Positions 2,090 to 31,309 of a stretch of 38,795 nt of DNA are shown here, piece by piece (positions within the stretch are counted from its first letter, which is position 1; every line of letters starts with the position of its first letter). The stretch comes from Spirochaetota bacterium. Lineage in GTDB: Bacteria; Spirochaetota; UBA4802; JAFGDQ01. The translations under genes and the position numbers were made by a program. Below the pieces are notes generated by a model. The model was not told the origin of the DNA, did no database searches, and saw nothing but the letters and a program-made list of their open reading frames with translations. Location of the stretch: positions 1-38,795 of the forward strand of contig JAXHTS010000048.1 in the NCBI GenBank assembly GCA_034190085.1, given 5' to 3'.

Positions 2090-2620
2090 TCAGCTATTAT
2101 CTGCAGAGAGTAAGTTCAGCAGTCTATCAACATTTTCATCACTTTTATTGTTCAATTCTATGCATCTATCTATGAGTGTCTCCCCCTTGCTGATTGCACT
2201 CGCGAATGCCATGCAAGAGAGATACCCACACTTTTTGCAATTGGTCTGTGGTAATAATTTGAAAATTTCAAGAACAGGGATGTGCCTATATTTTTTATAA
2301 TTTGGTTTTAGGAAATCCATCCTCATGTAAATATCATTAAGAAAATCAATAAGTCTTCCAATAAATCCTATTGCTTGGTTGCGATCCTCAAAGGGTGCCA
2401 CAGCAACATTGTCAGGATATAAGGCGCATCGAAATCCATCTAATGTAAATTGAATATAATGAGGTTTTTCATAATATATTGAATCTTCTATCATCTCATT
2501 GATGTATGGAAACAATTGAGTTACATCATTATCCAGCTTGAAATGAGCAACCCAAACTGGAGCTCCGACTATACAATCAGGAGTTTTTATTTTCAGGTCT
2601 GAGTATTCCTTTATCAGCAT
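2090..2620 (-). CDS. Small [4Fe-4S] protein with AcsC/CdhD-type Fe-S domain (PF04060-like)
   Basis: This 176-residue protein has a C-terminal motif C128-x2-C131-x4-C136-x16-C153, with the surrounding pattern NCKKCGYLSCMAFA. That spacing matches the Fe-S domain found at the N-terminus of the CO dehydrogenase/acetyl-CoA synthase corrinoid protein large subunit and in small stand-alone proteins. The first ~120 residues look like a compact alpha/beta domain that I cannot assign. No corrinoid barrel is present, so this is not an AcsC itself. A near-perfect ribosome binding site (GGAGGT, 7 bases before ATG) supports the start at 2620. The neighbours give no functional clue. Cluster binding is inferred from the cysteines; the reaction is unknown. 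Confidence 0.7.
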   Translation of the reverse strand: MLIKEYSDLKIKTPDCIVGAPVWVAHFKLDNDVTQLFPYINEMIEDSIYYEKPHYIQFTLDGFRCALYPDNVAVAPFEDRNQAIGFIGRLIDFLNDIYMRMDFLKPNYKKYRHIPVLEIFKLLPQTNCKKCGYLSCMAFASAISKGETLIDRCIELNNKSDENVDRLLNLLSADNS

Positions 2621-5472: not shown

Positions 5473-6568
5473 TTAAGCTTCCCATACAACCTTCCCATCT
5501 ATAATTGTCAAAAGGTTTTTAATGTTCTTTATCTCCTCTGGTTCCACTTGAGTTGGGTCATCGCTCAATAGCGCCATGTCAGCTAATTTCCCTGATGTGA
5601 TAGAACCTTTTCGATTCTCCTCAAATGATGCAAATGCAGGAAACAGACTATACATGCGAAGTGCATCAATAGTTGAAACAGATTCTTCTGGTGAAAAAGT
5701 AAGTGCAAATTGATCTTTTCTGGTAACAACGGTATAGATCCCAGTAAATGGATCGCTAGGAACCATAGGTGAATCTGAGCTGAGAACAGTCATCACACCA
5801 TGATTGCCAAAGGATTGTAAGGGATAAATCCATTTTAAATGCTCGGGGGGCATCCCCTTTCGATATCGATCTCCCATATGATAGAAGAAAGATGGTTGAG
5901 TCACTATAATTGTATTTAACAAACTCATCTTATGCATTAGATCTGGTGGACATATTGCTCAATGCTCGAATCGAGGTCGGCAGAATGGCTTGGGATCCCT
6001 CTTCGAGATATATTCCAATGATGCTATCGCCTTATCCAGGTTGTAGAGGTCGCTGACATGGAATGCAAGTTGGAAACCTGCCCTGTGTGCTCGGATTGCA
6101 TGAGCTAGTATTTCCTTCCCCCTTGGGTTGAGGATTCCCAGTGCTTTCATCAAGTGCAATTTTAGCAGGACCTATGCGTAGCTGATTATTCCCAACACCG
6201 CTATGCAGATCCATTGCATTAAATTCCTCTACAGCATTGCTGTTAACCATCATTGTGATACTGCGGAGTAATATCCTTGATTCCTTAAGTTTTTGATAGA
6301 ATCCCCAATTACCTAAGCCATTTGACCAGCTATCATCCTGCAGGGATGTAATGCCATGGGAGATGTAATACTGATTAGCTAGATTGATACCCTACTGAAG
6401 TTCTTCCTGATATATAGGTGGCCCCCTATACCTATCGAGTTCATCCCTGCTGCCAATAGCCAATAACCTGCTACCCTTGATAGCTACAATCTCAAGATTA
6501 GCCTGATCCTGATCAAGGGTTAGCAGCCTTACATTATGCAGAATTAAATTTGCATGGTTTTCTGACAT
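5473..6568 (-). pseudogene. Decayed amidohydrolase (YtcJ-like amidohydrolase family 3)
   Basis: Pieces of one amidohydrolase read right to left. The start at 6568 (MSENHANLILHNVRLLTLD) is a typical amidohydrolase N-terminus. It is followed by an in-frame TAG at 6392-6394, then a segment with GNNQLRIGPAKIALDEST. A frameshift near 6130-6150 leads into RGKEILAHAIRAHRAGFQLAFHV, an in-frame TGA follows at 5959-5961, and a C-terminal part ends in the usual SGKLADMALLSDDP and IDGKVVWEA. The metal-binding HxH segment and ~150-200 residues expected after the N-terminal strand pair are absent, so there is also an internal deletion near 6400. Intact relatives are about 520-570 residues; this locus spans only ~365 codons. 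At least two stops, one frameshift and one deletion make function very unlikely. Confidence 0.88.
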
Positions 6569-19894: not shown

Positions 19895-19924
19895 TTGACA
19901 ATATGTGGCTATTTTGCTATATTG
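19895..19924 (+). promoter_or_regulatory. Sigma-70 promoter with overlapping ArsR operator-like palindrome
   Basis: TTGACA at 19895-19900 and TATATT at 19918-19923 are separated by exactly 17 bases. CAATAT (19899-19904) and ATATTG (19919-19924) form a perfect 6-bp inverted repeat spanning the spacer, where an ArsR-type repressor would block RNA polymerase. The arsR ATG lies 22 bases after the -10. This also shows that the in-frame TTG at 19895 is promoter sequence, not a start codon. Confidence 0.75.
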
Positions 19925-19945
19925 CCAAATAGGAATATATCGCTA

Positions 19946-20281
19946 ATGGAACCTCAAAAACAAGCACAATATGAAGCAAGAGCAAATATAATAAAAGCGA
20001 TGGCTCATCCCAGCAGGCTATTTATCATAGAGGAACTCAATAAAACTGAACGATGTGTTGGTGAACTAACTGAGATGATTGGTGTTGATTCATCAACCAT
20101 ATCAAAGCACCTCAGCGTTTTAAAAAACGCAGGACTGGTCTTAGATGAGAAAAGAGGCACCTCAATTTATTATAAACTCAGGGTTCCATGCATTCTCGAT
20201 TTTATTGGATGTGTTGAATCAGTGTTAGAGAGCAACATGGCATCACAAATGGAGATAATGAAGAGTTGTAAAGCGAGGTAA
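19946..20281 (+). CDS. arsR: ArsR-family arsenic-responsive repressor
   Basis: The product from the ATG at 19946 is 111 residues, normal for ArsR, with AGGA about 15 bases upstream. The winged-helix signature is complete: AMAHPSRLFIIEEL, VGELTEMIGVDSSTISKHLSVLKNAGLV and the wing DEKRGTSIYYKL. The classical As(III) site (CVC in the DNA-recognition region) is reduced to C37. Further cysteines occur at C82, C89 and C108, so the inducer site may use C-terminal Cys residues, as in non-canonical ArsR proteins. It heads the arsenic cluster and sits behind a promoter with an overlapping palindrome, so autoregulated repression released by trivalent arsenicals is the likely control. Confidence 0.88.
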   Translation: MEPQKQAQYEARANIIKAMAHPSRLFIIEELNKTERCVGELTEMIGVDSSTISKHLSVLKNAGLVLDEKRGTSIYYKLRVPCILDFIGCVESVLESNMASQMEIMKSCKAR

Positions 20282-20338
20282 TTTTGTATATAGTACATGG
20301 CTTAATTGCCCCAAAACCACATACTTAGAGATTTATTG

Positions 20339-21637
20339 ATGAATTTTAGACAAGAATGGAAACCCCTACTCTGGATAACAGGAGCATTTATCCTATTATA
20401 CTTTCTGCCCATTGGAAACGAAAGATTTGATAATGCAATAATAGAGGCTCTATATCTTACAAAATGGTATGCCAGGGAACACGTATTACTATGCTTAGTC
20501 CCCGCATTTTTCATCGCTGGCGCCATAGCTGTCTTTGTTAGTCAGGAGTCTGTGATGAAGTACCTTGGCCCTAGCGCAAATAAAATACTCGCATATAGCG
20601 TTTCCTCTGTATCAGGATCTATCCTGGCAGTCTGCTCATGTACAGTTCTTCCCCTTTTTGCAGGCATTTACAGAATGGGCGCAGGGCTTGGTCCTGCCAG
20701 CACATTTTTGTATTCAGGACCTGCTATCAACATTCTTGCAATAATTTTAACCCTTCGTGTCCTTGGTCCTGAAATTGGCATTGCCAGGGCAATTGGTGCA
20801 ATTTTGTTCAGCATAATAATAGGATTGTTTATGCATCTTTTTTATCGTAAAGAAGAGATGAACAAGTCAGAGTCGCTGGTGCATATGCCTGAACCAGTCG
20901 ACTCAAGACCTATATGGCAGACTGTAATATACTTCGGCCTTATGATTGCTATTCTTGTAGTTTCAAACTGGGGAAGACCAAGCGATGAAACAGGATTTTG
21001 GCGATTGATCTACTCTTCAAAATGGATTATTACCTCTGTTTTGGCCTTGATATTCAGCATAATTTTAGTTAAATGGTTTAGTTTAAAGTGGTGGAAGATG
21101 CTTATAACATCTATACTTGTAATTGCGGCAGCAATACCTTTTGCTGATACGCCTCAGATTCCATTTACCATAGGAGTAATAGGTCTTTCGATTATAACAG
21201 GCACGGACAAGGGAGAAAACAGTGATTGGTTTGAACAGACATGGGGATTCGCTAAACAGATATTACCCCTGCTTCTTATAGGCGTAATTTTAGCAGGTTT
21301 TTTTCTCGGCAGACCTGATCATAAGGGGATAATACCCTCTGAATGGATAAGCGCAGCGTTAGGCGGCAATTCTATTTGGGCAAACCTTTTTGCATCAATT
21401 TCTGGCGCGTTTATGTACTTTGCGACCCTAACAGAAGTGCCAATATTAGAGGGACTGATCGGAAATGGAATGGGTAAAGGCCCAGCACTTACGCTTCTAC
21501 TCTCAGGCCCAGCGCTTTCATTGCCAAATATGCTGGTTATTAGAAGCGTTATAGGCACTAAAAAGACTTTGGTCTTTATATTGCTTGTTGTAATAATGGC
21601 AACAATATCAGGTATGATATTTGGAGCACTATTTTAG
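20339..21637 (+). CDS. DUF318/YraQ-family permease, ArsP-like
   Basis: This is a 432-residue permease with about ten hydrophobic segments in two halves. The first half has the hallmark C99-S-C101-TVLPLFAGIYRMGAGLGPA, then FLYSGPAINI. The second half repeats the theme with LLLSGPALSLPNML. This is the DUF318 family, which includes ArsP (trivalent methyl- and aryl-arsenical efflux) and the SO_0444-type metal exporters that typically sit between arsR and a small thioredoxin-like gene, as here. Which cargo it moves is inferred from context only. The ATG at 20339 is preferred over a TTG at 20306 because the product then begins at the first conserved segment. It lies 57 bases after arsR. Confidence 0.82.
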   Translation: MNFRQEWKPLLWITGAFILLYFLPIGNERFDNAIIEALYLTKWYAREHVLLCLVPAFFIAGAIAVFVSQESVMKYLGPSANKILAYSVSSVSGSILAVCSCTVLPLFAGIYRMGAGLGPASTFLYSGPAINILAIILTLRVLGPEIGIARAIGAILFSIIIGLFMHLFYRKEEMNKSESLVHMPEPVDSRPIWQTVIYFGLMIAILVVSNWGRPSDETGFWRLIYSSKWIITSVLALIFSIILVKWFSLKWWKMLITSILVIAAAIPFADTPQIPFTIGVIGLSIITGTDKGENSDWFEQTWGFAKQILPLLLIGVILAGFFLGRPDHKGIIPSEWISAALGGNSIWANLFASISGAFMYFATLTEVPILEGLIGNGMGKGPALTLLLSGPALSLPNMLVIRSVIGTKKTLVFILLVVIMATISGMIFGALF

Positions 21638-21668: not shown

Positions 21669-21902
21669 ATGAAAAAGATAGAGATACTCGGTTCTGGATG
21701 TTCTAAGTGCAATAAACTTGAAGAGCTTTCAAAAAAGGCAGCAGATGATCTTGGAATAGAATATGAAATAAACAAGGTAAAGGAAATTAATAAAATAACA
21801 GAATACGGCGTTATGATGACGCCAGCTCTTGTGGTAGATGGGGAAGTAAAGGTGGCTGGGAGGGTGCCACCCCTTGAAGATATAAAAAGGATGATCAAAT
21901 AA
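21669..21902 (+). CDS. Small thioredoxin-like CxxC protein (redox-active disulfide protein 2 type)
   Basis: The 77-residue protein has a thioredoxin fold reduced to its minimum: a first strand KIEILGSG, the redox pair C11-S-K-C14, and the cis-Pro segment MTPALVVDGEV. This is the TM0996/MTH895-like family commonly paired with DUF318 permeases. It probably reduces or delivers thiols or metalloids to the neighbouring permease in the cytoplasm; that role is inferred. The stop of the permease is 31 bases upstream, and AGGGGATTTTAGG precedes the ATG, so the two are one operon. Confidence 0.85.
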   Translation: MKKIEILGSGCSKCNKLEELSKKAADDLGIEYEINKVKEINKITEYGVMMTPALVVDGEVKVAGRVPPLEDIKRMIK

Positions 21903-22088: not shown

Positions 22089-22763
22089 ATGCTGAAGGTA
22101 AAACCACATCCCAACTATCCCCCTGAGGAGGGTAGATACATGCGCGGCAACGATGCCTCGCCCGTTGCGGTCATGATAATTTTGAATTCTGACGCTGACA
22201 AAATACCGCGCGAGATTGAGAGCCTCGTACGCACAGGCATTGAAAGCGGCGCTGCCCTTTCAGGAACGGTGCAGACCGAGAATATCGGTTTTGAGAAGAT
22301 AGTCTGCAATATAATCGCAAATCCAAATATTCGGTATCTGATTCTCGGAGGACCGGAATCCGAAGGGCATCTAACCGGAGAGGCCATGAAGCTTTTATTT
22401 ATGAACGGGGTTGATGAAAAGAACAGGATAATCGACTCGGACTCCCCTCACCCCTTTATGTATAATATCTCAATAGAGAAGATTGAGCGTTTCAGGAAAC
22501 AATTGATGCTGATTGACCTTCAGTTTGAAGCTGATCCTGACGTGATAAGGAGAGCAGTATGGTCATGTTATCAGGAGGAGCCGGTGGAATTCAGGGGATA
22601 CACCCTGTACGACTGCGGCGCCTATCCCGAACCACCGATGAATGGGGAAATCACATGGAGGGTAACGCAGCCATGGGTTGGAGTTATTGACGATAAGGAG
22701 ATGGAGGCCGTTCAAAAGGCGAAGGAACTGATGGAACGTCTAAGGAAAAGGAACAAAGGGTAG
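22089..22763 (+). CDS. Stand-alone MtrA-like corrinoid protein (methyl-H4MPT:CoM methyltransferase subunit A family)
   Basis: The 224-residue protein follows the MtrA family pattern closely: SPVAVMIILNSD, SGAALSGTVQTENIGFEKI, NPNIRYLILGGPESEGHLTGEA and GVDEKNRIIDSDSPHPFMYNI. In methanogens MtrA carries the cobamide that accepts the methyl group in the Na+-pumping MtrA-H complex. H94, in the EGHLTGEA loop, is my candidate for the lower axial cobalt ligand. The C-terminal membrane helix of archaeal MtrA is missing and the protein ends in a charged helix, so it should be soluble. Its codons are visibly richer in GCG/CGC/GGC than those of the flanking genes, suggesting separate acquisition. It sits between arsenic genes; no MtrH, other methyltransferase or corrinoid activator is in the window. 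Confidence 0.85.
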   Translation: MLKVKPHPNYPPEEGRYMRGNDASPVAVMIILNSDADKIPREIESLVRTGIESGAALSGTVQTENIGFEKIVCNIIANPNIRYLILGGPESEGHLTGEAMKLLFMNGVDEKNRIIDSDSPHPFMYNISIEKIERFRKQLMLIDLQFEADPDVIRRAVWSCYQEEPVEFRGYTLYDCGAYPEPPMNGEITWRVTQPWVGVIDDKEMEAVQKAKELMERLRKRNKG

Positions 22764-22871: not shown

Positions 22872-23060
22872 ATGACTACCCATAAACAGATAATACTAAT
22901 ATTTTTATCAGCTTTGATTATGATATGGGGAGGCGTCTCCAGCAAGAATTGCAAATGCCATAAGGACGAACACACATTTACAAACCAATGTCTCTTAAAA
23001 GAGACTAAATTGATTGATAAAAAAAAGATAAAGAAAATAATGCAAAAAGCTAATAAATAA
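22872..23060 (+). CDS. Small exported Cys-rich protein, candidate ArsE
   Basis: The 62-residue product has a hydrophobic signal or anchor segment (residues ~7-22). A short mature region follows with C27-K-C29-H and a further Cys at about 40 (NQC), then a Lys-rich tail. A ribosome binding site (GAGGG) is directly upstream. It precedes the ArsF gene by 17 bases and is co-oriented with arsF-arsG. In the arsEFG operon, ArsE is a small cysteine-containing partner of ArsF in reducing nitro groups of aromatic arsenicals. The assignment rests on position, size and cysteines, not on a sequence match that I can verify. Confidence 0.5.
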   Translation: MTTHKQIILIFLSALIMIWGGVSSKNCKCHKDEHTFTNQCLLKETKLIDKKKIKKIMQKANK

Positions 23061-23077: not shown

Positions 23078-23587
23078 ATGAATATGAAAAAAATTATAAC
23101 AATTGCATTATCATTGTTCATTTGTATAAGCCTAGTCTATTTGATAACAGATGAAATAGCTTCAAATAATGAACAAAAGACAGAGGTGGGGCATAATCTA
23201 AATGTAAAAACAAATATACCATCAAAATTATCCAATAAACAAAGTAGTAATCAAACAATAATAGTCTATTATTTCCATACTACCAATAGATGTTATTCAT
23301 GTCAAAGGATTGAAAGGCTTACCCTAGAAGCAGTACAAAAGGGCTTTGCAAAAGAGATTTCTGATGGAATAATAACATGGAAACCTGTAAATATAGAAGA
23401 GCATAATAACAAACACTATGTAAAAGAATTTAAGCTATATACGAAATCTGTGGTCATTGTGAAATTGAGTGATGGCAAACAGATCAACTGGAAGATGCTT
23501 GATAAAACCTGGAATCTATTAAGGGATGAACCAAAATTCACTGAGTATATCCAGGAGGAGATTAGGATATTTATGGAAAAGGCATGA
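23078..23587 (+). CDS. arsF: ArsF-family thioredoxin-like protein (nitroaromatic arsenical reduction)
   Basis: This 169-residue protein has an N-terminal membrane anchor or signal (residues 4-24), then a variable linker. The ArsF-type segment VYYFHTTNRCYSCQRIE follows, with a C72-x2-C75 redox pair and a thioredoxin-like remainder (ITWKPVNIEEHNNKHYVKEF, then a cis-Pro-less SVVIVKL strand). Family knowledge: ArsF acts with ArsE in reducing the nitro group of compounds such as roxarsone or nitarsone. GGAAG lies nine bases before the ATG. Its stop overlaps the start of the next gene (ATGA), indicating tight translational coupling with ArsG. Confidence 0.75.
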   Translation: MNMKKIITIALSLFICISLVYLITDEIASNNEQKTEVGHNLNVKTNIPSKLSNKQSSNQTIIVYYFHTTNRCYSCQRIERLTLEAVQKGFAKEISDGIITWKPVNIEEHNNKHYVKEFKLYTKSVVIVKLSDGKQINWKMLDKTWNLLRDEPKFTEYIQEEIRIFMEKA

Positions 23588-24282
23588 GTGACTCCTTTTT
23601 ACTCACCATATTTACTTCTCTATGGCTTGGGATACTTACATCACTAAGCCCATGTCCGCTTACTACAAATATTGCTGCGATGACATTTATTAGCAAAAGG
23701 ATTGTTAATATTAAAAATATTTTTATTGCGGGTATTTCATATACAACTGGTCGAATGCTTTCCTATACTTCGCTTGCAATAATAATAATTGCCAGCATCC
23801 TTTCAATAGAGGTTATTTCCAACTTCTTTCAGACATATATGAATAAAATTCTTGGCCCTATCTTGATATTTGCAGGGATGTTCCTCCTTGATTTGATTAC
23901 CTTTAATATAGGTGGAATTACCGATAATGAAAGAATACAAAAATTAGCGGAAAAGAATAATTACATTGGTGCGCTAATCCTTGGAGTCGTGTTTTCACTT
24001 TCCTTCTGTCCTGTATCAGCAGCTCTCTTCTTTGGCAGCCTCATCCCATTATCAATAAAATACAAATCAATGTTTATCTATCCCTCAGTATATGGAGTAG
24101 GAACAGCGCTTCCAGTATTCCTCATTGCTATATTGATTTCACTCGGAGCAAAGCATGTTGGAAATGTCTTTGAAAAGCTCACCGCAATGGAAAGATGGGT
24201 CCGTAAAGCAACAGGTATAATATTCATTATCGTTGGTATATATTATAGTATAACATTTATATTTAAGATCCATATTTTATAA
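23584..24282 (+). CDS. arsG: ArsG-family permease (CcdA/DsbD-like), aromatic arsenical efflux
   Basis: The product is a 232-residue, six-helix membrane protein of the CcdA/DsbD transmembrane type. Two pseudo-symmetric halves each start with a Cys-Pro motif: LSPCPL (C24) and SFCPVS (C142), which in CcdA form the membrane redox pair. Its coupling to ArsF by a 4-base overlap, and the neighbouring acr3, match the family annotated as aromatic aminobenzylarsenical efflux permease. An alternative reading is that it only feeds electrons to the periplasmic ArsF-like protein, as CcdA does for its partners. The sequence supports both. Confidence 0.75.
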   Translation: MSDSFLLTIFTSLWLGILTSLSPCPLTTNIAAMTFISKRIVNIKNIFIAGISYTTGRMLSYTSLAIIIIASILSIEVISNFFQTYMNKILGPILIFAGMFLLDLITFNIGGITDNERIQKLAEKNNYIGALILGVVFSLSFCPVSAALFFGSLIPLSIKYKSMFIYPSVYGVGTALPVFLIAILISLGAKHVGNVFEKLTAMERWVRKATGIIFIIVGIYYSITFIFKIHIL

Positions 24283-24298
24283 AAATTGAGTTATAACA

Positions 24299-25369
24299 AT
24301 GAAAGAAGAAAAACAATTATCTTTATTTGAAAAATATCTATCTCTCTGGGTTCTGCTTTGTATAGCAGGAGGGATACTTTTAGGAAAGATAGCGCCTGAA
24401 ATTGCGGTTAAGCTGGATTCATTATCCATATATCAGGTCTCGATTCCAATAGCTATCTGTCTGTTTTTTATGATGTATCCCATAATGGTAAAGATTGACT
24501 TTGCAGAGGTAAAAAGGGCTGCAAAAACCCCCAAACCAGTATTATTAACACTATTTATAAACTGGGCGATTAAACCATTTAGCATGTATTTTATTGCATA
24601 TCTATTTTTAGGATACCTGTTTAAAGAATTCATGCCAGGGACAGAGATTATTAAATCAGGCCAGGAAGTTGAATTATGGCGAAGTTATATTTCAGGAGCG
24701 ATCTTACTCGGTATAGCCCCATGTACCGCAATGGTATTGATGTGGAGCTATTTAGCCAAGGGTAATGATGGACTAACATTAGTAATGGTTGCTATAAATT
24801 CACTTACTATGCTTTTCCTATATGCTCCATTAGGAGGATTTTTGCTTGGAGTAAATGCGATGCCGATTCCATGGCAGACAATACTCCTTTCAGTTACAAT
24901 TTATGTTGCTATACCGCTTATTGCAGGATACTTTTCACGAAAATTGCTGATCAAGCGTAAGGGACTTGAATGGTTTAATTCAAAATTCTTGCATTTCCTT
25001 ACTCCTGTGAGTATTGGAGCACTCCTTGTTACTCTTATCCTTTTGTTTTCATTCAAAGGGGAGATTATCTTAATAAATCCTTTAACAATTCTATGGATCG
25101 CTGTTCCGCTTTTGGTTCAAACCCTATCTATTTTTATTCTAGGATATTTTCTATTAGCGAGATTATTTAAACTCTCCTATCAAGATGCTGCTCCATCTGC
25201 GATGATAGGTGCTTCGAATCATTTTGAGGTTGCTATTGCAACTGCAACCATGCTCTTTGGTCTATCATCTGGGGCAGCGTTATCAACCGTTGTTGGCGTT
25301 TTAATTGAGGTTCCAATAATGCTGATGCTTGTTTCAATCTGCAAGAGGACATCAAATATGTTTAGCTGA
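24299..25369 (+). CDS. acr3: Acr3-family arsenite efflux permease
   Basis: The 356-residue, ten-helix transporter has the key Acr3 segments: [19 protein letters not shown] with the essential-type Cys142, the conserved [13 protein letters not shown], and the late Glu337 in LIEVP. Acr3 exports As(OH)3 across the inner membrane, driven by the proton gradient. It lies 16 bases downstream of arsG and closes the arsenic cluster. No arsC arsenate reductase, arsA or arsM is visible. Arsenate resistance would therefore need genes elsewhere, or the cell meets arsenic mainly as As(III) or organoarsenicals. Confidence 0.93.
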
Positions 25370-25673: not shown

Positions 25674-27500
25674 ATGATATACAATAAAAGGATTAAGTCT
25701 CTTATTATACGGTCTCTCTTTGTTGTGCTAATCTATCTTCTCCTTCTTCCACAAATGAGCAATGCTCTTGAATTGTATACGATTGTTGAGAAGAATAAGA
25801 TATTAAATTCAGGTTTGATTATTGATGTAGAGGAGAATAAGGCAACCCTTCTGCTTCTTGATGGCACACTAAAAGGAGTTCTATTAAATGATATCAGCGC
25901 AATACTCATATACAATATAATAGAAAATCCATTGTACGGATTGCAGATAAATCCCGAACTCTCAAAGTTTTTACGAAAAGTCTATATTGAAGATGTAGAT
26001 GAGCCCTCCCTTACAGCATTGCCCGTTCAATTGATCAATGAAATGGTCATATTTTATGATATTTCAGGAAAGATTCATGTGCATAGACTCTCGAATATTT
26101 ATAAACTAAGGTCTTATAAATATAGAGAAGATAAATACATAAGCTTTAATAATGCGCCCATTAACCTGAATATCGGCGATATTCTGTTAGACGGAAACAT
26201 AGATACGGAATTTAAAGGGGAAGAGATATATCCCACAAAGACATTGTCAGATACAATTAAAATTTATGATTTTTTTTCAACCCTTAGAGATGGATTTCTG
26301 AAGATAAATAACTATAAGGAAAGAACCTATGTATATGCAAAACCCTTTCTCTTCGATCAATCGCTAAAACTCGGAAATGTCTTTCTTTTTTGGGGAAATA
26401 AACTAATAGGCAGAGATCTATTTAACACCTATTTCCAATGGTCAACCGGGACTTCCCATGGGTTTCAAACTCAGACAACTATCGGAGGGGCGCTGTGTGA
26501 ATGGCTCCCCAGGCTTAGCCCTCTCTGGGCCCTTCAGTCTGAAATCAAGTCTCATTTTTTTAATTCAACCTTTGTTGGCAACATAAATCCAAAGGCATTG
26601 CCTGCTGGAAGCAGATACTATACTAGCGAAGATGATTTTGATGATATGAATTTTGGTATGATGAATGATGAGGATAATGCATTTGACAAGGCTGATAATA
26701 TCTTTGGCTCAGATGTAGAGGAAAAATTGATAGTGGATGATGATCCCTATATTACTTCTCATATCAACTACCTTCTATCAATAGGTGTGGATTACAAATG
26801 CTATTCGCTTTCAGTGGGAATGTTTAATCCTATTTATGCTATTCGAGTAAATAATCATTTTCGCGAGATCATGGCCTCAAAAAACTCTCCATTTTTTAAG
26901 TTCATCTATTTTAAGGGAGATATTCGTCTAAAATCCATGTTCTCTGTTTCCAGATATCATCATAAGGATGATGATGTAATAGATAATGTGTATGCGCGCT
27001 ATTTGGAAAAAAAAATATATGAATATGTCGAGACAGAGTATGGTTGGATATTTCCCTTTCCCATGCTTAGAAAGGATATCTATGGGTATGCTGAATACAA
27101 CAGTGACAGTGAATCGCCTTTATTATCCTACAGATTTAAATCATATTTTGCTAGATTTGGGATTTCCTATGATCTGAATCCGGATATTCAATTAGGATTG
27201 GATGGAGTAGTAATCGCAGGAAAGTATACCGAAACCTTTAATGCAATAGATTTTTCTTCTGATATTAGTGAGATTATTCTTCAGAGCGAATCTATCACCT
27301 ATGATCTGTATTCAAACACCATAAATTTTAAACAGTATAATACTGGGATATACATTTACCAAAATTTCAGCGATTACGTCGCTATAAAGTTAATCCTAAA
27401 TATATATATCAGTCAATATAAATATAATATGTTTAATATCAGTGATAATGATACATCGATTAAGCTGCAATCCGGAGGATCCTTTGAGCTCATTTTTTAG
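25674..27500 (+). CDS. Exported protein of unknown function, probable outer-membrane beta-barrel
   Basis: The N-terminal signal peptide ends near SNALEL (about residue 31). Residues ~35-75 form a small beta-rich module (SGLIIDVEENKATLLLLDGT) that resembles an SH3-like or LSm-like fold and seems to recur around residues 125-150. An acidic stretch rich in Asp and Glu spans ~317-360. The remainder alternates polar and aromatic-hydrophobic residues (for example YKCYSLSVGMFNP, YAEYNSD, GIYIYQNF), and the protein ends in Phe (SFELIF), the classical last residue of outer-membrane barrels. I recognise no family. The next gene is a paralogue in the same operon. It may form an envelope complex with its neighbour. 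Confidence 0.7.
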   Translation: MIYNKRIKSLIIRSLFVVLIYLLLLPQMSNALELYTIVEKNKILNSGLIIDVEENKATLLLLDGTLKGVLLNDISAILIYNIIENPLYGLQINPELSKFLRKVYIEDVDEPSLTALPVQLINEMVIFYDISGKIHVHRLSNIYKLRSYKYREDKYISFNNAPINLNIGDILLDGNIDTEFKGEEIYPTKTLSDTIKIYDFFSTLRDGFLKINNYKERTYVYAKPFLFDQSLKLGNVFLFWGNKLIGRDLFNTYFQWSTGTSHGFQTQTTIGGALCEWLPRLSPLWALQSEIKSHFFNSTFVGNINPKALPAGSRYYTSEDDFDDMNFGMMNDEDNAFDKADNIFGSDVEEKLIVDDDPYITSHINYLLSIGVDYKCYSLSVGMFNPIYAIRVNNHFREIMASKNSPFFKFIYFKGDIRLKSMFSVSRYHHKDDDVIDNVYARYLEKKIYEYVETEYGWIFPFPMLRKDIYGYAEYNSDSESPLLSYRFKSYFARFGISYDLNPDIQLGLDGVVIAGKYTETFNAIDFSSDISEIILQSESITYDLYSNTINFKQYNTGIYIYQNFSDYVAIKLILNIYISQYKYNMFNISDNDTSIKLQSGGSFELIF

Positions 27501-29217
27501 TAGATATATTATCCTCCTCATCCTTTTTCTTTTAATGTTTTCTGATAATATCTGGTCAATAAATATACATGGTCTTTATACATCCGCCTGCAAACGAGAG
27601 TTAGGTGTAATTGTGGATGTAAATGATTCTAAGGTACAGCTATTTACATTAACAGGAAAAATAATTGAAGTGCCTCGATATGAGATAATTTTTATGACAT
27701 ACTATTCTATTCATAACTTCCCTCCTGTAACGCTCAAAGAAGCAGACAGGGTTGATATGGTAAAGGTGCGAACATTACAAAATAATAAGATCGTGGATCT
27801 TGTTTCAGGATGGCCATTCGATTACTCAGAAGATAATATCTCATTTTTAACCCAGGAAGGGCGCGAGGTGGTAATCGCAAGGGAAAGCATATGGGAGATT
27901 GAAATTGCTAAAACACCAAGGTCAATCAAATTTGTCAATGAACAGAAGTATAACCTAAAATTTATTCACCCCTATCCCTTTAGAAACTGTGCTTATCAAC
28001 AGAGAGCCGAGGACAATTCCGCGGAAAAACTATATAATGTATTCCCGCAACAGTTCCTAAGCGATCCTGTGATAATGAAAAAAGAACTGGACAGACTAAT
28101 GTCTGGCCGAAAGCGCATAGATAAATATAATAGCTGGCAGCAATTCTATTCAATCCCTCAGGTTTATACTAATACCACATCCTTAGGGTATTGGTTTTCC
28201 ATTGGTTCAAGATACGGCGCGTCCAAATCGCGAAACAACAACTTGGCTCCTATTTTACAAAATGAATATTCCTCAGGTCCCTTTGGCTACCAGCACCTTT
28301 TGCTAACAGGAAGCGCTCCCATCCCCTATTCGGTCCATGAAGAGCCGCAGACACAGGTATATTACAGATTGAAGGCTGATTATATACACATAGCGGCAAT
28401 GTTTGATGCCAGTCAATACATATTGCCTTCAGATAAGTATGATTGGGGGAAAGATGATCTCTCCTCCTACGATGATCGATTAAATCAGAGTTATTCCGGG
28501 GAAGTGGGGATCGATTATTGGCATCTGACCCTACAAGCATATTTCAGCATTCTTCCCTTTGGAATACGCTGCGGTGATAACACATATTTTGGTGAGGCAA
28601 ATTCATTGAGAATTGGTACAACCTTTCAAAATCATCTTATAAAAATTGAGTTTCAGTATGAACTGCCGACAGGCAACGATGAGGAAACCGAGACTATTAA
28701 CCTCAATACGGGTTTTGCAGGAGCGAAGAGGGATAATGAATTCAGGATCAAAGCCCATAGATTAAATCTTGAGACCTCAATATCCGCTAAAACAACATTA
28801 TGTTATAGTGTAATATATCGAACCCTGAAATACAATAATTCAGGCGATACCTCTTCCCCAAGGACTATATATGAGCTATACAGCGACAGTTTAGAAGACT
28901 TACAGCAAATGTATGAGGATAATCCCTATGGTATACCAGAATATTATTTAGAACAGTTATCATTAGCAGAAGAGATGACAAGCAATTATGAAGAGGCTCT
29001 GCCTGTGTTTAACTCTATGATCTTCAGTTACAAGAGCATGTCAATAACAAATGCGGTCTATCTGCTCTATTCATTAAACCAAAAATATACCCTCGGATGC
29101 TTTGCATCCATTGAATATCACAGCTTGAAATACAGAAACAATTATATATCAAATTTTAAAAAAGACACATGCCATTTCTATCCAAAATTTGGAATTCATG
29201 CCTCATTATCTTTCTAA
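27484..29217 (+). CDS. Exported protein, paralogue of the preceding gene, probable outer-membrane beta-barrel
   Basis: I place the start at a TTG (27484-27486), six bases after GGAGG at 27474-27478. That gives a clean signal peptide (SSFFSRYIILLILFLLMFSDNIWS). An ATG at 27442 would add 14 polar residues in front of it. The start lies inside the last codons of the upstream gene, a 17-base overlap indicating translational coupling. The first ~70 mature residues (GVIVDVNDSKVQLFTLTGKI, then EIIFMTYYSIHNFP) parallel those of the upstream protein (GLIIDVEENKATLLLLDGTL, then AILIYNIIENP). The rest is barrel-like and ends HASLSF, again with terminal Phe. The final product is ~577 residues with no assignable function. 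Confidence 0.7.
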   Translation: MSSFFSRYIILLILFLLMFSDNIWSINIHGLYTSACKRELGVIVDVNDSKVQLFTLTGKIIEVPRYEIIFMTYYSIHNFPPVTLKEADRVDMVKVRTLQNNKIVDLVSGWPFDYSEDNISFLTQEGREVVIARESIWEIEIAKTPRSIKFVNEQKYNLKFIHPYPFRNCAYQQRAEDNSAEKLYNVFPQQFLSDPVIMKKELDRLMSGRKRIDKYNSWQQFYSIPQVYTNTTSLGYWFSIGSRYGASKSRNNNLAPILQNEYSSGPFGYQHLLLTGSAPIPYSVHEEPQTQVYYRLKADYIHIAAMFDASQYILPSDKYDWGKDDLSSYDDRLNQSYSGEVGIDYWHLTLQAYFSILPFGIRCGDNTYFGEANSLRIGTTFQNHLIKIEFQYELPTGNDEETETINLNTGFAGAKRDNEFRIKAHRLNLETSISAKTTLCYSVIYRTLKYNNSGDTSSPRTIYELYSDSLEDLQQMYEDNPYGIPEYYLEQLSLAEEMTSNYEEALPVFNSMIFSYKSMSITNAVYLLYSLNQKYTLGCFASIEYHSLKYRNNYISNFKKDTCHFYPKFGIHASLSF

Positions 29218-29800: not shown

Positions 29801-31309
29801 TCAATCGCAGGAACAAGAGACGTCTATGCTGACCTCCACCCCATTGTATATAAACTTACATATATCCGTACAGTCGGACTCATCCAGATTATTGTCAGTC
29901 AGCCTAAGCGCTGTCAAATTAGAGAGAACAGAAATGGAAGAGATATCACTTATTTGATTATCTTCAAGGTTCAGATATGTAAGATGAATTAATCCTGAAA
30001 GGGAGGAGATATCGATTATATCATTACTTCTTAGATAAAGTTGTGTAAGATTAGTTAAAGCTGATAAGAAAGAAATGTCGCTTATCTGATTATCATTAAG
30101 TCTGAGATTTGAAAGATTGGTTAACACTGATAGGGAAGAAAAATCAATTATCTCATTATCTCCAAGGCTAAGATATGTAAGATTAGTTAAAACTAAAAGG
30201 GAAGAGATATCGCTTATCTCATTATATCCAAGGCTAAGATATGTAAGATTAGTAAGCGTTGATAGGGGTGAGATATCATTTATCTTATTACTTCCAAGAT
30301 TAAGATCTGTAAGATTAGTTAAAACTGAAAGGGAAGAGATATCGCTTATCTCATTATCTCCAAGGTTAAGAAATGTAAGATTAGTTAAAACTGATAAAGG
30401 TGAGATATCTATTATATCATTAGCGTTAAGGAAAAGCTCCTTAAGATTAGTAAGAACTGATATAGGAGAGATATCGCTTATCTCATTATCCCAAAGGTTA
30501 AGATCTGTAAGATTAGTAAGTGTTGATAGGGGTGAGATATCATTTATCTTATTACTTCCAAGATCAAGATATGTAAGATCAGTAAGCGTTGATAGAGGTG
30601 AGATATCATTTATCTCACTATAATTAAGGTTAAGATATGTCAGGTCAGTAAGGACATAGAGGGGAAATATATTCTTAACTTTGTTGAAACAGTTGTCACT
30701 CATGTTAAGGGTCTCCAGACAGGTTAGCCATGAAAGAGGCGCCATATAGCTTATCATGTTGGACTTCAAGTTAAGGTTAGTCAGAGCAATGCAATACTCT
30801 AGTCCACTTAAATCATTTATCCTTAATAAAGATAAGTCTAAATCTGTGGGGCTGTTTATAAGATCACTATTGAGAATATCGCCTGTGGGCCTGCCAATAG
30901 CCTCCCTAACCTTCAGCTCAATATTTGCATCCGCAAATACTACAACCTCCTCTTCGTCAATATCGCCATCGCAATCATTGTCCTTGCCGTCGCAAGCCTC
31001 TGATGCTGTGGGATGGATAGCTGGATCACTCTCATCACAATCCTCCTCCTCTCGATTGCAAAAATTATCGCCAACTCCATATCCGTCTTCATCCTTATCC
31101 TGGCATGTGTCACAATCAGACCAGTGATCAGCATGATCGTCGTTGCAGTCAGGGCCAGGGAGACAATTTTCCCCATAACCATCACCGTCATTATCAATGC
31201 AGAGGTTGGGAGGAATTACGATTTTATCATCATCGCTGCACGCGAGAAAGAACATAACACATACTGTAAGAGCGAAACAAAAATACAAGGTTCTCCTAAG
31301 CATTCCCAT
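29801..31309 (-). CDS. Lipoprotein with MopE/thrombospondin-3-like acidic motifs and leucine-rich repeats
   Basis: The 502-residue protein has a lipobox FLAC (Cys24). Residues 37-118 carry Asp/Cys-rich repeats (DNDGDGYGENC, DKDEDGYGVGDNFC, EACDGKDNDCDGDIDEE) of the MopE/thrombospondin type 3 kind, which bind calcium or other metals. About 14 internalin-like 22-residue leucine-rich repeats follow (~160-480; consensus LTNLTYLNLGDNEISDISPLSV). A Cys-rich C-terminal cap (SCSCD) closes the protein. The surface-anchored architecture suggests adhesion or protein binding. Successive LRR units are nearly identical at DNA level, indicating recent internal duplication. Near the likely start there is a run of G rather than a normal ribosome binding site. 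It stands alone between the repeat array and the tRNA gene. Confidence 0.88.
   Translation of the reverse strand: MGMLRRTLYFCFALTVCVMFFLACSDDDKIVIPPNLCIDNDGDGYGENCLPGPDCNDDHADHWSDCDTCQDKDEDGYGVGDNFCNREEEDCDESDPAIHPTASEACDGKDNDCDGDIDEEEVVVFADANIELKVREAIGRPTGDILNSDLINSPTDLDLSLLRINDLSGLEYCIALTNLNLKSNMISYMAPLSWLTCLETLNMSDNCFNKVKNIFPLYVLTDLTYLNLNYSEINDISPLSTLTDLTYLDLGSNKINDISPLSTLTNLTDLNLWDNEISDISPISVLTNLKELFLNANDIIDISPLSVLTNLTFLNLGDNEISDISSLSVLTNLTDLNLGSNKINDISPLSTLTNLTYLSLGYNEISDISSLLVLTNLTYLSLGDNEIIDFSSLSVLTNLSNLRLNDNQISDISFLSALTNLTQLYLRSNDIIDISSLSGLIHLTYLNLEDNQISDISSISVLSNLTALRLTDNNLDESDCTDICKFIYNGVEVSIDVSCSCD

Follow-up and report, generated by a model that had tools for sequence, protein, structure and literature searches.

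The window analysed here, a stretch of 38,795 nucleotides from a Spirochaetota bacterium, carries a gene for a protein resembling MtrA of methanogens, and the question it raises is what such a protein does outside the Mtr complex. A sequence-only reading had proposed a re-purposed soluble corrinoid carrier rather than part of a sodium-pumping complex, and our analysis bears this out. The gene is a real open reading frame with an ATG start, encoding 224 residues; both family motifs that had been described as well kept were found, and residues 4–168 match the Pfam MtrA profile with 137.7 bits against a cut-off of 25. The protein also exceeds the cut-off of NCBIfam model NF002126 (197.4 against 161 bits) and misses that of TIGR01111, the equivalog for full-length MtrA (125.9 against 249.15 bits). 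MtrA structures were its sole matches in a sequence search of the PDB, the NCBIfam HgcA profile NF040863 gave no match at E 1e-3, and a search of the host genome with the window protein as query showed one gene of this kind. The C-terminal membrane helix is absent, as had been claimed: in both sequence and AlphaFold model, residues 202–223 form an amphipathic, charged helix with which the model ends. Nor did a Pfam scan of ORFs of at least 100 aa, minus those opposite other genes, find any of MtrB–H in the window, again as stated earlier, and a search for a more distant MtrH (PF02007) gave no match in the host genome assembly, which is 96% complete.

The proposal that H94 is a candidate cobalt ligand has likewise held up. 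When aligned by phmmer with the MtrA proteins of M. fervidus and M. jannaschii, H94 falls on His84, which binds the cobalt from below in the methanogen protein, and T63, E64, N65 and N74 fall on Thr53, Glu54, Asn55 and Asn64, all of which are cobalt-ligand or pocket residues named for the methanogen protein (PMC4915002). H94, T63, N65, G67, N74 and G93 are unchanged in all 45 relatives compared, and E64 is kept in 39, the other six having proline. A QTPN motif, with proline in place of the glutamate (Glu54 position) that holds the ligand histidine, occurs in L061, L062, L064, L065, L066 and L032, which retain the histidine. The meander segment reads GAIPF in methanogens as against (S/A)PHPF in the group of the window protein; in 37 of the 45 relatives H121 stands in the place of Ile111. 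Two cysteines, C73 (43/45) and C160 (44/45), are replaced by A and L in one canonical methanogen MtrA, and C160 aligns with a cysteine in MtrA of M. fervidus and M. jannaschii. Comparison of the AlphaFold model (pLDDT 88, pTM 0.81) with known structures by Foldseek and VIA-align gave Z 25.0 and an rmsd of 1.2 Å over 159 residues, at 41% identity, for 5laa (MtrA with cobalamin) and Z 26.7 for 5l8x; MtrA matches in the PDB lay at Z 24–27 and the nearest unrelated fold at Z 7.7. From the alignment and this tight superposition it follows that H94 is predicted to sit beneath the cobalt. The modelled fold thus superposes on one with a cobalamin pocket and H94 does not vary among relatives, the two points on which the earlier proposal could have failed. 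These data support a soluble, MtrA-fold, His-on corrinoid carrier outside the Mtr complex, with cobalamin binding predicted from sequence and model.

How far the protein stands from its methanogen namesakes was apparent from a maximum-likelihood tree, in which a clade of 56 rows is split from both Mtr-complex MtrA and the soluble methanogen paralogues by a branch with 100/99 support. That the window protein is a subunit of an Mtr-type Na+ pump or methyl-tetrahydropterin:CoM methyltransferase, as its family name and PF04208 match might suggest, is scarcely credible, and the missing membrane helix, the failure against TIGR01111, the absence of MtrH and the separate clade led us to rule it out. 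With Mtr-complex MtrA (5l8x, 9qtr/9qts; PMC4915002) it shares the fold, the His84-type ligand and the Thr53/Glu54/Asn55/Asn64 pocket, but it differs in having no transmembrane helix, 35–41% identity, the (S/A)PHPF meander, an added C-terminal segment and an ars operon around its gene. The cytoplasmic methanogen homologues, one of which (5laa, M. fervidus) is the closest solved holo structure, likewise consist of the soluble cobalamin-binding domain alone; they are, however, 60–97% identical to Mtr-complex MtrA (PMC4915002), whereas the window clade, at about 40% identity, lies outside that range and branches apart. A Methanosarcina sp. UBA5 MAG (G059) has canonical MtrA, further soluble MtrA genes and, on a contig of 8 kb, a copy of bacterial type with 73% identity (L017, the same as L094), through transfer or contamination. 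In a genome of the same order as the host (G016, contig C43; L063/L099), a frame of 375 aa encodes a divergent PF04208 protein that is 30% identical over part of its length and has no ars neighbours.

The genomic setting, which the sequence-only reading had not mentioned, is an arsenic operon. A run of genes lies on one strand in the order arsR-arsP-arsE-mtrA-(62-aa ORF)-arsF-arsG-acr3, placing mtrA mid-operon (Table 1). A scan at chance level found no terminator-like site on the (+) strand from the ArsR to the ArsG gene, and we infer that the ars genes and mtrA are transcribed as a single unit. Given the position of the promoter-like site, ArsR probably starts at a downstream ATG near 19943. 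Downstream of the operon, two long, neighbouring and possibly outer-membrane-type proteins (25674–27500 and 27442–29217, both +) have no Pfam or NCBIfam match. Elsewhere in the window, 29801–31309 (−) encodes a protein of leucine-rich repeats that bears a copper-binding motif of MopE type, and 5473–5937 (−) is an amidohydrolase C-terminal fragment that covers profile positions 346–471 of 472 only and is likely to be a gene remnant.

Table 1. Features of the arsenic operon and a distant Fe-S protein gene in the window
Feature	Position	Strand	Evidence and remarks
Promoter-like site, TTGACA-17-TATATT (11 of 12)	19895..19923	+	Consensus scan, chance-level; likely ars operon start; not by itself evidence of function
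ArsR/SmtB-family repressor	19895..20281	+	PF01022 2.2e-13; NF033788
ArsP-family permease (organoarsenical exporter family)	20306..21637	+	PF03773 6.8e-68
ArsE-family thioredoxin-like protein	21669..21902	+	TIGR00412 103 bits, over cut-off
Soluble MtrA-like corrinoid protein (predicted)	22089..22763	+	PF04208 3.9e-40; PDB match Z 25-27; conservation
62-aa ORF, N-terminal hydrophobic stretch and CKCH motif, gene uncertain	22872..23060	+	ORF list; no Pfam/NCBIfam match
ArsF-family protein	23078..23587	+	NF040494 112.8 bits, over cut-off
ArsG-family permease (DsbD/CcdA-like)	23584..24282	+	NF040495 273 bits, over cut-off
ACR3 arsenite efflux transporter	24299..25369	+	TIGR00832 391 bits, over cut-off
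176-aa Fe-S protein	2090..2620	-	PF04060 5.1e-14; full-length homologue of Chloroflexota ars-cluster Fe-S protein (BLASTP 1e-24 to L052:4952-5494)

This association recurs among relatives. We compared 64 loci, 57 from a scan of genome contigs and seven regions from same-phylum genomes, assessing neighbours within the fetched flanks by ORF clustering, neighbour lists and tblastn. ACR3 was the commonest neighbour (24 loci), often directly adjoining mtrA, followed by ArsP (16) and ArsM (12), and at least one of the three was present in 32 of the 64 loci, 27 of these having it in the same orientation and no more than 3 kb away; L020 and L023, where the ars gene is 6–8 kb off, are weaker cases. The linked loci come from Spirochaetota, Chloroflexota, Actinomycetota, Thermodesulfobacteriota, Planctomycetota, Aerophobota and methanogenic archaea, and their gene orders differ. 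ArsM (NF008823) directly adjoins mtrA in L010, L024, L025 (4-bp overlap) and L044, the L010 match lying under the family cut-off (222 against 263 bits). Eighteen loci were too short to judge, and 14 whose flanks extend 3 kb or more to either side, mainly from a Desulfobacterota clade, had none of the three genes (one of them, L099, falls outside the clade of the window protein); linkage to ars genes is therefore not obligatory. ORF clustering found no shared neighbour in the non-ars Desulfobacterota loci, and no cobalamin riboswitch was found in the nine loci examined for one. Linkage also recurred in a sample of 393 Spirochaetota genomes picked regardless of ars genes, in which PF04208 matched 13 places in 12 genomes and ACR3 lay within 2.5 kb of seven of the 13 (P ~3e-14 at about 0.4% expected per place, a value that assumes independent places, which does not fully hold, one family supplying five of the seven). 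ACR3 occurs without MtrA in two genomes from the family to which the window belongs, so mtrA is an accessory part of ars operons. Since the deepest branches of the clade are held by ars-linked members (Chloroflexota, Aerophobota and L044/L057), the linkage is probably old and was then lost in much of Desulfobacterota.

Some relatives join the corrinoid domain to an Fe-S domain. In one Chloroflexota protein (L051) MtrA is followed by a C-terminal PF04060 [4Fe-4S] domain of CdhE type (E 1.5e-11; NF003195, E 3e-14), and three further Chloroflexota proteins from ars clusters (L049, L050, L052) have a C-terminal cysteine pattern in common with it; L050–L052 encode a separate Fe-S protein as well within the same cluster. 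The Fe-S domain of the fusion is of the kind found at the N-terminus of CdhE in CoFeSP (AcsC/CdhE), the corrinoid protein of acetyl-CoA synthase, but its corrinoid domain is MtrA-type and not CoFeSP-type. The window encodes a homologue of the separate protein 19 kb from the operon (Table 1), which might, speculatively, be an electron donor to the corrinoid. A second type of fusion (L048:42-1364, L054:769-2007) joins MtrA to a C-terminal domain without a Pfam match that carries CQKT..CKIG..C motifs and also occurs as a gene of its own downstream (L046:7743-8159, L054:2014-2607). The host has Wood–Ljungdahl pathway genes, one contig (G000:C30) encoding an AcsE-like methyl-THF:corrinoid methyltransferase, the CoFeSP large subunit and acetyl-CoA synthase together, as well as 14 other genes with B12-binding domains; no RACo-type corrinoid activator was found in its genome. 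Among Spirochaetota genomes, 7 of the 11 with a clade MtrA have acetyl-CoA synthase, compared with 21 of the remaining 382 (P 1e-6); outside Spirochaetota it occurs in about 19 of 24 carriers, both associations being confounded by phylogeny. Unlinked to the window operon, host contig C37 (L103:1162-3270, −) encodes a 702-aa fusion of the arsenosugar radical-SAM protein ArsS (TIGR04167, residues 54–350) with an ArsM-type methyltransferase (353–590), adjoining a peroxiredoxin-like gene.

A His-on carrier, a CoFeSP-type Fe-S domain, Wood–Ljungdahl anaerobes and ars operons together point to a cobalamin methyl shuttle between the Wood–Ljungdahl C1 pool and arsenic; transfer to arsenite is the best explanation, one that we hold tentatively. 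In this scheme, in which cobalamin occupancy, methyl transfer, arsenic as the partner and the direction are all putative, base-off cob(I)alamin with H94 under the cobalt would gain a methyl group either from methyl-THF via the host's AcsE-type methyltransferase or from CoFeSP. The methyl-cob(III) protein would then pass it to thiol-bound arsenite, the methylarsenical would leave via ArsP and the remaining arsenite via ACR3, and the Fe-S partners would reduce Co(II) to Co(I). Methylcobalamin with thiols methylates arsenite, and HgcA methylates mercury. Several observations run against this explanation, however: the 14 loci free of ACR3, ArsP and ArsM; the frequent presence of SAM-dependent ArsM, beside which a second methylation route seems redundant; and the lack of a RACo-type activator in the host and of a riboswitch at the loci examined. 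Moreover, operon linkage is no proof of chemistry, nor did the model yield an arsenic site.

The reverse direction is nearly as good a reading, although taken singly we consider it somewhat unlikely. Here a Co(I) protein would demethylate methylarsenicals independently of O2, the methyl group entering the Wood–Ljungdahl pathway via AcsE/CoFeSP and ACR3 exporting the arsenite, which would suit both the prevalence of ACR3 beside mtrA and hosts that are Wood–Ljungdahl anaerobes, where O2-dependent ArsI is useless. No mechanism is known for the anaerobic demethylation of DMAs, for which the literature has invoked the corrinoid proteins that methylotrophic methanogens possess (PMC10579292). Known corrinoid demethylases, however, pair with a nearby substrate-specific methyltransferase of MtaB or MttB type, and ORF clustering and neighbour lists revealed neither such an enzyme nor a dedicated methylarsenic:corrinoid methyltransferase conserved in the relatives' loci; beside ArsM, moreover, demethylation would be a futile cycle. 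The lack of a conserved extra methyltransferase, the thiol-aided chemistry of methylcobalamin and the analogy with HgcAB slightly favour arsenite methylation over demethylation.

Two readings dispense with methyl transfer to or from arsenic. The protein might be an arsenic-responsive corrinoid or thiol protein that acts as a sensor or scavenger or guards the cobalamin pool, perhaps by binding As(III) on C73 and C160, an unlikely role to which the near-invariance of these cysteines in the relatives, their replacement in one canonical methanogen MtrA (though C160 does have a cysteine counterpart in M. fervidus and M. jannaschii) and the loss of E64 from the cobalt-ligand network in six members lend some colour; the Chloroflexota Fe-S fusion, which suggests redox cycling of the corrinoid, argues against it. 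Slightly less probable is a general corrinoid methyl carrier of Wood–Ljungdahl anaerobes that is simply carried along with ars genes on mobile islands. The unlinked loci, many of them from Desulfobacterota, and the association with ACS genes would fit such a carrier, but not the recurrence of ars linkage across seven phyla and deep branches in differing gene orders, in some cases with mtrA directly between ars genes, nor the two same-family genomes that carry ACR3 without MtrA.

Taken without regard to direction, the proposal that an MtrA-scaffold corrinoid system swaps methyl groups between the Wood–Ljungdahl pathway and arsenic, whether as a SAM-independent methylation route or an O2-independent demethylase, is on balance probable, and would make the system the arsenic counterpart of HgcAB. 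The latter likewise comprises a corrinoid protein and an Fe-S partner, proposed to move a Wood–Ljungdahl methyl group to a toxic element; HgcA, however, is a CoFeSP-type membrane protein with a Cys ligand, whereas the window protein has the unrelated MtrA fold and a predicted His ligand, and does not match the HgcA profile. ArsM, a SAM-dependent arsenite methyltransferase, and ArsI, an O2-dependent C–As lyase, catalyse neighbouring or analogous methylarsenic steps, but neither fold nor cofactor is in common with the window protein, which is predicted to be corrinoid-dependent and oxygen-independent.

To our knowledge, the only dedicated enzymatic route of arsenic methylation is that of SAM-dependent ArsM. 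Bacterial soluble MtrA homologues with a mostly conserved His84 were noted in 2016 (PMC4915002); our search of the open-access literature found no paper linking mtrA to ars operons. Demethylation of methylarsenicals occurs in anoxic soil by a mechanism that is not established (PMC10579292), and methylated arsenic in flooded soils damages rice. A predicted B12 protein in the ars operons of Wood–Ljungdahl anaerobes provides a specific candidate gene for arsenic methylation or demethylation. The MtrA corrinoid fold appears to have been re-used outside methanogenesis, and the database name 'tetrahydromethanopterin S-methyltransferase subunit A' is misleading in these organisms. In conclusion, the presence of a soluble MtrA relative in ars operons of at least seven phyla of anaerobic bacteria and archaea suggests an unrecognised B12-dependent transfer of methyl groups to or from arsenic.
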